In this document: in pieces, positions 6,926 to 9,873 of the stretch
Position numbering within the stretch: position 1 is the first letter of the stretch
Layout: each line of letters opens with the position of its first letter
Source: Erythrobacter aurantius
GTDB taxonomy: Bacteria; Pseudomonadota; Alphaproteobacteria; Sphingomonadales; Sphingomonadaceae
Length of the DNA stretch: 64,000 nucleotides
Direction of reading: 5' to 3'
Assembly (NCBI RefSeq): GCF_023823125.1
Contig: NZ_CP090949.1
Coordinates: 2,442,001 to 2,506,000 of the forward strand
Made by a program: the position numbers and the translations under genes
Notes under the pieces: model-generated
Seen by the model: the letters and a program-made list of their open reading frames with translations, nothing else
What the model was told of the DNA's origin: nothing
Databases searched by the model: none

Positions 6926-8143
6926 ATGACCGAAAACACCCCTAACTCCTTCCGCACCCAGCCCGACGAACGCGGGCATTTCGGCGAATTCGGCGGACGC
7001 TATGTCGCCGAAACGCTGATGCCGCTGATCCTCGATCTGGAGCGCGAATACCGCGCGGCGCAGGCCGATCCGGCCTTTGCCGCCGAATTCGACGATCTGA
7101 TGAAGCATTACGTCGGCCGCCCCTCCCCGCTCTATTTCGCGGAACGGCTGACAGAAGCTTTGGGTGGCGCGCAAATCTGGTTCAAGCGCGACGAGCTGAA
7201 CCACACCGGCGCGCACAAGATCAACAATTGCATCGGCCAGATCCTGCTGGCGAAGCGCATGGGCAAGACCCGCATCATCGCCGAAACCGGCGCAGGCCAG
7301 CACGGCGTGGCGACCGCAACCGTCTGCGCGCGCTTCGGCCTGCCTTGCGTGATCTACATGGGTGCAGAGGACGTGAAACGGCAATCGCCCAACGTCTTCC
7401 GCATGAAGCTGCTCGGCGCGGAAGTCGTCCCCGTCACCAGCGGCGGAGCGACCTTGAAGGACGCAATGAACGAGGGCTTGCGCGATTGGGTCGCGAACGT
7501 CCACGACACCTTCTACATCATCGGCACCGCCGCAGGGCCGCATCCCTATCCGGAGATGGTCCGCAATTTCCAGAGCGTGATCGGCACCGAAGCGCGCGAA
7601 CAGATGCTGGATCGCGTGGGCCGCCTGCCCGATCTGCTGGTCGCCTGCATCGGCGGCGGGTCGAACGCGCTGGGGCTGTTCCATCCCTTCCTCGACGATC
7701 CGGACGTGAAAATGCTCGGTGTCGAAGCGGCAGGATACGGCCTCGACGGCGATCAGCACGCGGCAAGCCTTCTGGGCGGTTTCCCCGGCGTGCTCCACGG
7801 CAACAAGACCTATCTGCTGCAGGACGAGGACGGCCAGATCACCGAAGGCCATTCGATCAGCGCGGGGCTGGATTATCCCGGCATCGGCCCGGAGCACGCA
7901 TGGCTCAAGGAAACGGGCCGGGTCGAATACACCGCCGTCACCGACGACGAGGCTCTGGAAGGCTTCAAGCTACTTTGCCGGACCGAGGGAATAATCCCCG
8001 CGCTGGAGCCGTCGCACGCCATCGCAGCCGTCGCCGACCGCGCCAAGCAGATGAGCAAGGACGAGATCATCCTGATGAACCTGTGCGGACGCGGGGATAA
8101 GGACATCTTCACCGTAGCGGAGAAGCTGGGAGTGGCGATGTGA
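6926..8143 (+). CDS. trpB: Tryptophan synthase beta chain
   Basis: A 405-residue PLP enzyme that condenses indole with serine. The PLP lysine lies in [10 protein letters not shown] (Lys98), the phosphate-binding loop is GGGSNALG near residue 240, and the C-terminus [12 protein letters not shown] is canonical. The gene starts 7 bases after trpF. In most relatives trpA follows directly, as the two subunits form one complex. Here 947 bases separate them, filled by a small membrane protein gene, a DUF559 cassette and a dispersed repeat. Confidence 0.97.
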
Positions 8144-8496
8144 GAATAGCCGGATACGTGCTGATTGGCCTTGGCTTCGCGACCGCCCTGCTTTGGAATT
8201 GGGTTGGACGCGAAAGCGTTGGGCTCATGGCTGTTTTCGGAGTATCGATGATTGCTGGACTTCTGCTGCTATCGGTGAACGCAATCGTCCGGCTCTCACG
8301 AGGTGATCTACAACTGCGTCCGATCGCTGCCCTTAAGCGCGCCCCGCTTATTTTTGTAATCATGATTGTAGTATATGCGCTGGCCGGCGTCATCTTTCCA
8401 GCAACACAAATCGATTGGACCGAGACCTTGGTGAAATGTGCGATCATTTCGTCGTTGATGGCTATCTACTTTAGCGCATATCGAAAGCCAGCATGA
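8140..8496 (+). CDS. Small four-helix membrane protein of unknown function
   Basis: A 118-residue protein with about four predicted transmembrane segments (around residues 3-20, 29-47, 68-86 and 93-112) and no motif that I recognise. The GTG start overlaps the trpB stop, so translation may be coupled. The sequence is visibly richer in A and T than trpB and trpA (for example 8335-8480), which suggests later acquisition. Its stop TGA overlaps an ATG at 8493 that begins a 15-base copy of the trpA start, so before the insertion trpA probably began there. The frame is intact, but expression and function are unproven. Confidence 0.6.
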
Positions 8497-8507
8497 CCCG
8501 CCTCTCC
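8493..8507 (+). repeat. Duplicate of the first 15 bases of trpA
   Basis: ATGACCCGCCTCTCC at 8493-8507 is identical to trpA codons 1-5 at 9091-9105. It overlaps the stop of the upstream membrane-protein gene as ATGA. An imperfect further copy (TGACCCGCTGTCC, with a downstream CACCCA also shared) lies at 8962-8985, just beyond the DUF559 cassette. It looks like the old trpA start, left behind or duplicated when the 583 bases between the copies were inserted. Confidence 0.7.
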
Positions 8508-8531
8508 TATGCTCTCGTCACCCACCAAAAG

Positions 8532-8567
8532 CCCTCTCCCCTTCAGGGGAGAGGGTTGGGAGAGGGG
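8532..8567 (+). repeat. Left 36-bp inverted repeat of the DUF559 cassette
   Basis: It contains its own hairpin: a 10-bp stem CCCTCTCCCC / GGGGAGAGGG with a TTCA loop (8532-8555), followed by TTGGGAGAGGGG. Similar CCCTCTCC-type palindromes are common intergenic repeats in proteobacteria. The final AGAGGGG abuts the ATG of the nuclease gene. Confidence 0.9.
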
Positions 8568-8568
8568 G

Positions 8569-8958
8569 ATGCGTGACGCTTCCTCGCTCAAACACGCTCA
8601 AGCCATGCGCAAGGATATGCCGGAGCCGGAAAGACGTCTTTGGCTCGAACTCCGGGCAGCTCGCTTCCAGGGCGTCAAGTTTCGCCGGCAGAAGGTGATA
8701 GGAAGGTATATCGCGGATTTCGCATCAAACGATCCGAAGCTTGTGATCGAGCTGGATGGTGACAGCCACGCTGGTCGTGAGAGTTACGACGACGCACGGA
8801 CCCGGTTCCTCAAAGAACAAGGATACCGGGTGATCAGATTTTCGAATTCTGAAGTGATGGGGAATATGGAGGGTGTTCTGGTCAGGTTGGCGGAAGTTTT
8901 TGCGGAAATGGGATATTCCCCTCTCCCAACCCTCTCCCCTGAAGGGGAGAGGGCTTAG
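8569..8958 (+). CDS. DUF559 / very-short-patch-repair-like endonuclease domain protein
   Basis: A 129-residue protein with the DUF559 layout: an N-terminal MRKDMPEPERRLWLELRA helix, a strand with FRRQKVIGRYIADF, the acidic core LVIELDGDSHAG, then RFLKEQGYRVIRFSN. The Asp in YIADF, the Glu-Leu-Asp-Gly segment and the spacing fit the PD-(D/E)xK/Vsr nuclease fold, so it is predicted to cut or nick DNA; the substrate is unknown. The ATG at 8569 directly follows the left inverted repeat. An upstream ATG at 8509 would translate the repeat itself and is less likely. The last residues (PLPTLSPEGERA) are encoded by the right repeat. Confidence 0.8.
   Translation: MRDASSLKHAQAMRKDMPEPERRLWLELRAARFQGVKFRRQKVIGRYIADFASNDPKLVIELDGDSHAGRESYDDARTRFLKEQGYRVIRFSNSEVMGNMEGVLVRLAEVFAEMGYSPLPTLSPEGERA
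8918..8953 (-). repeat. Right 36-bp inverted repeat of the DUF559 cassette
   Basis: Exact reverse complement of 8532-8567, with the same 10-bp hairpin at its outer end (8930-8953). It lies in frame at the 3' end of the nuclease gene, whose TAG stop follows just outside it. Confidence 0.9.
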
Positions 8959-9041
8959 TCCTGACCCGCTGTCCTACTCGCACCCAAGATGCCATAGAGC
9001 CGACATGACCAATGCCTCACCTCACCTCAATGATTCTAACC

Positions 9042-9076
9042 CCAGGACAGTGTTCCATGTGTTCCATCCTGTAGGA
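9042..9076 (+). repeat. Dispersed GTTCCAT repeat, copy 1
   Basis: A ~34-base repeat built as CCAGGACAGT, two GTTCCAT heptamers two bases apart, then CCTGTAGGA. It ends 14 bases before the trpA ATG. Its terminal AGGA is the only purine-rich site near that start. Other copies are at 27609, 53137 and 62248 (reverse). Confidence 0.85.
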
Positions 9077-9090
9077 TTCCACACCTCGAA

Positions 9091-9873
9091 ATGACCCGCC
9101 TCTCCACCGCCTTCTCCGCCCCGCACCCCGCTTTCGTCGCGTTCATCACCGCTGGCGATGGGGACACCGCCGCGAATCTGGACGCGCTTGTCGCGGGCGG
9201 CGCCGATGTGATCGAGCTGGGCATGCCCTTCACCGATCCGATGGCCGATGGCCCTGCGATCCAGAGCGCCAATCTGCGCAGCCTTGGTGCAGGCACCAAA
9301 ACCGCAGACGTGCTGCAAATCGCCGCCGATTTCCGCGCACGGCACCCCGACGTTCCGTTGATCCTGATGGGATACGCCAACCCGATGATCCGGCGCGGTG
9401 CGGAATGGTTCGCCGATGCCGCGCACAAGGCGGGCGTTGATGGTGTCATCTGCGTCGACATTCCGCCGGAGGAAGACGGCGAGCTCGGCCCGGCCCTGCG
9501 CGCAAAGGGCATTGCCCCGATCCGCCTCGCCACCCCCACCACCGATGCGGCGCGTCTGCCGCAAGTGCTCGAAGGGTCAGGCGGGTTCCTCTATTACGTC
9601 TCCGTCGCCGGGATCACCGGAAAACAGCAGGCCGCAATCGATTCGATCGAAGGCGCGGTTTCGCGGATCAAGCAGCACACCGACCTGCCCGTCGCGGTCG
9701 GCTTTGGTGTGCGCACTCCGGAACAGGCCGCAGAGATCGCCAAGGTCGCTGACGGTGTCGTGGTCGGCTCCGCCTTCGTCGATCTGGTCGGCGAATTTGG
9801 CAAGGACGCCCCGGCCAAGCTACAAGAGCTGACTTCGGCCATGGTCACCGCCATGCGCGCCGCAGTCGCATAA
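9091..9873 (+). CDS. trpA: Tryptophan synthase alpha chain
   Basis: A 260-residue TIM barrel that splits indole-3-glycerol phosphate into indole and glyceraldehyde-3-phosphate for TrpB. The catalytic pair is visible in [19 protein letters not shown] (Glu42 and Asp53), and the phosphate-binding C-terminal segments [11 protein letters not shown] and GSAFVD are intact. The gene seems functional although it is separated from trpB by an insertion. Its 5' leader consists of the dispersed repeat, whose AGGA lies 14 bases upstream of the ATG, rather far for a ribosome binding site. accD follows after 10 bases. Confidence 0.96.

Follow-up and report, generated by a model that had tools for sequence, protein, structure and literature searches.

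The DUF559 nuclease gene lodged between trpB and trpA in the window (the whole 64,000-nucleotide stretch of the Erythrobacter aurantius genome that was analysed) is probably part of a selfish unit resembling a REPtron, in which a gene for a nuclease of the Vsr/EDxHD fold lies inside inverted hairpin repeats specific to that nuclease. Sequence comparison shows that gene and repeat are paired, that each repeat matches its nuclease, that nuclease-free repeat pairs are dispersed and face inward as the arms of the full unit do, that the enzyme is under purifying selection, and that fixed operon junctions are occupied again and again. The pairing points to a largely overlooked type of very small mobile DNA unit.

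The unit in the window

The unit and its surroundings comprise the following features, with the two flanking genes named trpB and trpA on our assumption from their sequence and order.

6926-8143, + strand: trpB, the upstream neighbour (ORF list; matched as TrpB in relatives)
8140-8496, + strand: 118-aa ORF without assigned function that overlaps both trpB and the following ATG
8493-8507, + strand: 15-nt stretch identical to the first bases of trpA (9091-9105), from a direct-repeat search
8529-8570, + strand: left inverted arm, with a 36-nt core at 8532-8567 and a hairpin at 8532-8555
8569-8958, + strand: DUF559/Vsr-like nuclease gene, 129 aa plus stop (ORF 8569-8955; PF04480 profile, model and fold search)
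8915-8956, - strand: right inverted arm, with a 36-nt core at 8918-8953 and a hairpin at 8930-8953
8959-9090, + strand: spacer before trpA, containing a 23-nt motif
9091-9873, + strand: trpA, the downstream neighbour (ORF list; matched as TrpA in relatives)

The preliminary description of this DNA had reported perfect 36-bp inverted ends, and indeed 8532-8567 is the exact reverse complement of 8918-8953 over 36 nt. These cores sit within arms of 42 nt (8529-8570 and 8915-8956) that are 98% complementary and have 344 nt between them. The internal 10-bp hairpin ascribed to each repeat was likewise recovered, as a 10-bp stem with a 4-nt loop (CCCTCTCCCC-TTCA-GGGGAGAGGG). Folded as single-stranded DNA, the 42-nt arms gave z values of -2.0 (left) and -3.1 (right), and the 71-nt arm regions gave -3.6 and -3.5 (left and right). 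A known RNA family was rejected, the single Rfam match falling far below the cut-off. Neither a GTAG nor a CGTC tag is present in the 36-nt repeat. The window holds seven copies of the motif CCCTCTCCC, where shuffling predicts 0.52, and six of the seven lie within the arms. Across the 3.42-Mb genome the 24-nt core, searched with up to three mismatches, is present only at the two window arms, so that at this threshold the repeat has no dispersed copies in its own genome.

The nuclease ATG abuts the left arm and the C-terminal residues are encoded by the right arm (PLPTLSPEGERA), exactly as first reported. The identification of the product as a 129-residue DUF559/Vsr-like nuclease also stands: the ORF matches PF04480 with E 7e-38 and 129.3 bits, the curated cut-off being 20.6. 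The Pfam matches of the enclosed ORF were DUF559 and, below cut-off, REase_MTES_1575; no Pfam match to a transposase, such as an insertion sequence would carry, was found inside the unit. In a model of the 129-aa protein the fold spans nearly the whole chain, with residues 122-129 at low confidence. A fold search with this model placed an uncharacterised Neisseria protein (3hrl) nearest, followed by 3r3p and then Vsr (1vsr); the match to 3r3p_A, the catalytic domain of I-Bth0305I, had an E value of 9e-5 and a TM score of 0.79 by target length. The residues E19, E21, D50, E61, D63, H67 and D74 are invariant in the nuclease alignment, and we take the invariant E, D, E, D and H to fit a Vsr-like active site. 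The median dN/dS of the nuclease is 0.15 (210 of 496 pairs with usable dS), and the gene is under purifying selection.

The claim that the unit splits trpB from trpA holds, with the addition that the two genes are also separated by the 118-aa ORF and by about 130 nt to the right of the unit. This ORF has no Pfam match; its relatives in L210 (62.5% identity) and L212 (58.6%) run straight into trpA, an arrangement that plausibly represents the pre-insertion state of the window site. The first 15 nt of trpA occur twice in the window, once on either side of the unit, and the copy at 8493-8507 opens an in-frame 27-codon leader (8493-8576), which crosses the left arm and shares 8 nt with the start of the nuclease gene. 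The 23-nt motif of the spacer (GGACAGTGTTCCATGTGTTCCAT, window 9040-9090) was found, among 375 loci and besides the own genome, only in L202. The copy of the trpA start and the motif in common with L202 suggest past recombination at the site.

Pairing and matching of nuclease and repeat

A PF04480 search across the 118 genomes analysed from the order found DUF559 in 41 of them, eight of which carry 5 to 9 copies. A repeat was scored as an inverted match between 300-nt flanks at E<1e-3, and 106 loci with both flanks present were counted; loci at contig ends (L106-L108) were left out beforehand, as were short loci (L228, L242, L248) and loci with no intact match (L176, L187) from later counts. 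Inverted repeats surround 79 of these 106 loci, 68 of them at 1e-5. When positions about 1 kb away were scored alongside, repeats were found at 21 of 28 order DUF559 loci and at none of 56 control positions. The class and phylum searches, sampled as the best-scoring of the newly returned loci, gave 17/27 at DUF559 versus 0/54 and 13/24 versus 1/48, respectively. Neighbouring positions are mostly coding sequence, and gene-level controls were therefore added; here inverted repeats occurred at 0/30 trpA genes and 2/20 Y1 transposase genes, compared with 21/27 for DUF559. Shuffled left and right flanks were positive in 40 of 318 combinations between genomes and in 37 of 226 between loci of one genome, such mixed flanks scoring because the repeat families resemble each other. 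The proposal that gene and repeat go together is borne out by these counts, and the repeat is linked to DUF559 rather than evenly spread. That the repeats are a chance or low-complexity product, a view to which their richness in short C/T and A/G runs might lend itself, is ruled out by the control positions, the shuffling and the genome-wide core search, and is further contradicted by the 79 of 106 loci; its probability is negligible.

Flanking repeats were missing at 27 of 106 order loci, 10 of 27 class loci and 11 of 24 phylum loci. Fourteen of the 27 repeat-less order loci belong to one suf-operon lineage, which has a common flanking gene with the SufB-side copy of the own genome. The latter (L005, C1:486356-486661) is the one further DUF559 match in the genome, adjoins a SufB-family gene and has no flanking repeats. 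The SufB-side lineage extends over 14 genomes (L005 and 13 other loci), none with flanking repeats, and is possibly a retained host gene.

Repeat sequence tracks nuclease sequence. For 77 loci, protein similarity and arm similarity were correlated over pairs from different genomes with a Mantel r of 0.586, the maximum of 2000 permutations being 0.124. The correlation was 0.538 (permutation maximum 0.116) once pairs with homologous flanks were excluded, and 0.497 (permutation maximum 0.327) within single genomes. In a comparison bearing on concerted evolution of the arms, 51 of 66 elements had an own arm that scored above the orthologous mean; set against the best orthologous arm, it won 32 times and lost 28. 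Such co-variation is in line with the link between gene and repeat claimed at the outset. By these similarities repeat and enzyme seem to co-evolve, as is required of a REPtron.

Repeat pairs without the gene do exist, as dispersed pairs in other genomes, both for the arm family of the window (F1) and for a second one (F4); these names, like F3, are labels of this analysis for the several families into which the arms sort. The F1 36-mer (up to three mismatches) is present in 8 of 118 genomes and the F4 signature in 20 of 118 with up to 82 copies, all of these genomes being DUF559 carriers; a reversed-F4 control signature gave zero copies in the 118 genomes. One family holds all eight F1 genomes and 18 of the 20 F4 genomes, and because 31 of its 35 genomes carry DUF559, the presence of F1 or F4 alone is weak evidence. 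Within this family, the 11 genomes that carry an F4 nuclease unit exceeded the 24 without one in solo F4 copies (p 9e-6, uncorrected for relatedness), counted with two copies subtracted per unit and with L105, which has a non-F4 arm, excluded. The orientation of 140 F4 sites was typed in nine of the 20 F4 genomes. Neighbours less than 150 nt apart formed 24 inward pairs and one outward pair; at 150-1000 nt there were eight inward pairs, two tandem pairs of one kind and one of the other. The eight wider inward pairs have spacings of 351-390 nt, and a DUF559 match lies inside every one of them.

An F1 repeat pair lies near 1500-1620 of L278 and L288, which come from two genera, at the junction of two genes that we take from their sequence to be atpA and atpG. 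It is absent from 25 atpG junctions of other genomes (five of them partial: L321, L324, L330, L331, L339); these represent the 25 of 30 returned loci in which the atpG start was found, the window genome (L326) falling outside this coverage. By eye, solo F1 arms close to gene ends often stand opposite another arm related to them. Dispersed enzyme-free pairs in one relative orientation are thus established for F4 and were seen for F1 in other genomes, and the window genome has only its two arms.

Some genomes are rich in F4 repeats and have no F4 nuclease unit in the locus set, namely G080 (50), G065 (17), G044 (12) and G074 (8). Such genomes would be expected if another enzyme spread the repeats and the nuclease gene had been captured as a passenger between two copies. 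However, the co-variation of repeat and nuclease persists with unrelated flanks, other genes or positions are rarely or never enclosed, and the Y1 transposase, the one alternative enzyme that was looked for, is undetected in most repeat-bearing genomes; we consider a passenger gene quite improbable. In numbers, the Y1 transposase (PF01797) occurs in 26 of 118 genomes but in only four of the 20 F4 genomes (G005, G039, G053, G080), and the window genome has no match at E 1e-5. A palindrome of the types found at DUF559 units accompanies one of 30 Y1 loci versus 24 of 31 DUF559 loci. With this count, and with no Y1 transposase detected in 16 of the 20 F4 genomes, a Y1/RAYT transposase is ruled out as the true partner. 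One Y1 transposase gene (L369) has a strong flanking inverted repeat of its own (E 5e-13).

Fixed junctions and the history of the trpB/trpA site

A scan for relatives of the nuclease returned 73 loci, many of which match only repeat-coded residues, and the 29 best (L006-L034) were used as the closest relatives; because the scan also used repeat-coded residues, this set leans towards F1. All but one of the 29 (the exception being L033) lie between trpB and trpA in identical orientation, and the more distant L035 and L043 are, like L033, found outside trpB/trpA. The window's 36-mer is identical in both arms of 16 of the 29 relatives and in the left arm of 23, and the lowest arm identity in the set is 27/36 (L034), whereas the median agreement at third codon positions of the nuclease gene is 42%. 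The preliminary description had envisaged, as an outcome against mobility, that every relative would carry this gene at the trpB/trpA site and that its ends would have diverged. The first part of this picture largely applies (28/29), and the second does not, both arms being identical in 16 of 29.

Within the genus the gene is patchy. A TrpA match was found in 35 of 41 genus genomes, and among 30 trpB/trpA loci (L188-L217, window included) the gene is present in four and absent from 26. The arms of the three genus-mates with the gene are more diverged, retaining 33 and 31 (L195), 31 and 31 (L204), and 34 and 36 (L217) identities out of 36. The gene-less junctions comprise five with a bare trpB/trpA overlap and 21 with other inserts, and no inverted repeats (E<1e-3) were found in either kind by a whole-insert test across trpB-trpA that also missed L204, a gene carrier. 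The junction is a hot spot in this genus: besides the 5 loci with a bare overlap and the 4 occupied by the DUF559 unit, 21 hold assorted inserts, either small ORFs or repeats of other kinds. Inspected by eye, none of the 26 gene-less junctions contains the repeat of the window unit, and no empty site with a lone copy, as predicted for a mobile unit, was seen. The mobile reading is partly supported, by the gene-repeat link, the matching and the gene-free pairs, and fails in the matter of single-repeat empty sites.

Nuclease similarity does not follow TrpA. Identity of the nuclease to that of the window (TrpA in brackets) is 78% (80%) for L008, 63% (86%) for L195, 65% (83%) for L204, 55% (82%) for L020 and 67% (74%) for the Sphingopyxis locus L015. 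In trees of 30 loci, built after L006, L118 and L204 had been left out, five of nine supported nuclease splits conflict with trpA+trpB, compared with three of 12 for trpA versus trpB. The history of the trp site is read from these sequences as a mixture of descent and horizontal reoccupation.

One rival explanation is that this is a homing endonuclease gene, whose product cuts unoccupied trpB/trpA junctions that are then repaired from an occupied allele, the repeats serving as boundaries or protection. One site and one orientation in 28 of 29 closest relatives, a fixed site with empty alleles in the genus (4/30 occupied) and the decoupling of nuclease from TrpA similarity (for example L195 and L015) all speak for it, as does a homing endonuclease, I-Bth0305I, being the nearest functional fold. 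Nevertheless, homing leaves the nuclease-specific repeats and the dispersed nuclease-free pairs unexplained, the conflict in the trees is mixed (5/9 against 3/12), and the tethered DNA-binding region of the EDxHD family is missing from the protein. We regard plain homing as unlikely, though it is the strongest of the rival explanations.

Under the favoured reading as a REPtron-like selfish unit, the nuclease would recognise its own repeats, be it in the form of single-stranded DNA hairpins, of a cruciform or of the inverted pair, and would cut at or beside them. Repair or recombination could then spread nuclease-free pairs in trans, and the full unit might re-enter its own site, here trpB/trpA, from another genome in a homing-like manner.

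The trp junction is one of several fixed sites. Of 158 DUF559 loci, 101 fall into groups whose members have at least one neighbouring gene in common, with side and strand also agreeing. Representatives place these groups next to genes of the dihydrolipoamide acyltransferase/dehydrogenase type and those for YqeY/DnaG, transhydrogenase, ribonucleotide reductase, the carbamoyl-phosphate synthase small chain, carboxyltransferase and SufB; annotated records, one each, read sufB-DUF559-sufC and YqeY-DUF559-dnaG. At the arms themselves TA, a candidate target, lies within 6 nt outside 37 of 71 F1 arms, versus a background of 6%. A 15-nt direct repeat stands around the window unit as a potential target-site duplication, its junction being resolved by no strain pair, and no clean duplication was established at the F1 arms or at the window unit.

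Junctions that are stable across genera are also what would be seen if the nuclease gene were a part of the operon retained by the host for mRNA processing, termination or the expression of its neighbours, and had come down mostly by descent, with losses along the way. Among the points that would suit this role are the purifying selection on the enzyme, start and stop codons that overlap around the unit, and solo repeats close to gene ends. Patchy presence within the genus, nuclease similarity that is decoupled from TrpA and the use of different junctions in different lineages nonetheless argue against it, and we hold it to be improbable, more so than homing.

Relation to known systems

Palindromic repeats are abundant in bacteria. 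As far as the available portions of two sources go, the partner enzymes described for them are Y1 HUH transposases, and some repeat classes are reported without any partner enzyme (PMC3733652, PMC8266576). The same portions describe REPIN-RAYT systems as an enzyme gene amid short palindromic repeats, with enzyme-free pairs and co-evolution (PMC8266576, PMC3733652). On that partial account, the DUF559 units resemble them in their flanking palindromic repeats, in dispersed enzyme-free pairs and in enzyme-repeat co-evolution. Unlike in REPIN-RAYT, however, the enzyme of the window unit has a Vsr/DUF559 fold and is not a Y1 HUH transposase, the window repeat has no GTAG or CGTC tag, and copies are fewer.

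Excerpts of a cyanobacterial genome paper place one DUF559 gene in the EDxHD family (PMC9403480), and EDxHD homing endonucleases are described, in the part of the source at hand, as carrying an extended DNA-binding region that is tethered to their catalytic domain (PMC3943268). The likeness to this family, exemplified by I-Bth0305I, lies in the catalytic-domain fold (3r3p) and in fixed sites within conserved operons. In contrast to these endonucleases, the window unit has no intron, intein or tethered DNA-binding region, and DUF559 units have inverted hairpin ends and dispersed gene-free copies. Vsr and Caulobacter VsrA are similar in fold (1vsr) and in the DUF559 domain, respectively; VsrA is reported to trigger an SOS response in a methylase mutant and is treated as a mismatch repair protein, and the excerpts of that report make no mention of repeats around it (PMC12907096). 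Alphaproteobacterial CGTC repeats are reported, in the excerpts at hand, without an associated transposase gene (PMC3733652), and CIR/MITE-type short intergenic inverted repeats are also described in part of the literature on this class (PMC3733652, PMC2229807). The DUF559 repeats differ from bacterial MITEs, CIR and CGTC repeats in sequence and in having a candidate partner enzyme.

No earlier description of the DUF559-repeat pairing was found among the literature matches listed, a coverage that leaves bioRxiv preprints outside. In the DUF559 literature there was no co-mention with 'inverted repeat', and co-mentions with 'palindromic' were unrelated by title. The units may form a new class of mobile element across Pseudomonadota and possibly beyond, consisting of one gene for a Vsr/PD-(D/E)XK nuclease that would recognise its own hairpin repeats, spread them as nuclease-free pairs and return to one fixed operon junction in each lineage, a wider claim that we advance tentatively. 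Such an element, if real, would parallel the RAYT transposases with an independent enzyme. The pairing links repeats to a second enzyme family, unrelated to the Y1 HUH transposases, through position, co-variation of sequence and co-occurrence in genomes. It also offers a testable function for DUF559, which is still of 'unknown function' in Pfam, and a candidate driver for those repeats that have no transposase of their own.

Phages or plasmids as the main carriers are not supported. DUF559 matches there are weak and come from 21 plasmid records, some as large as a chromosome, and two phage records, with further matches in six viral contigs. Six of the 21 plasmid records were checked, and four had no flanking repeats; one of 12 control positions in these six records scored (L345, E 4e-6). 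The two records with repeats were L343 (E 2e-7) and L344 (E 2e-19), the latter a plasmid of Deinococcus proteolyticus, outside Pseudomonadota, on which the DUF559 gene has strong flanking inverted repeats.
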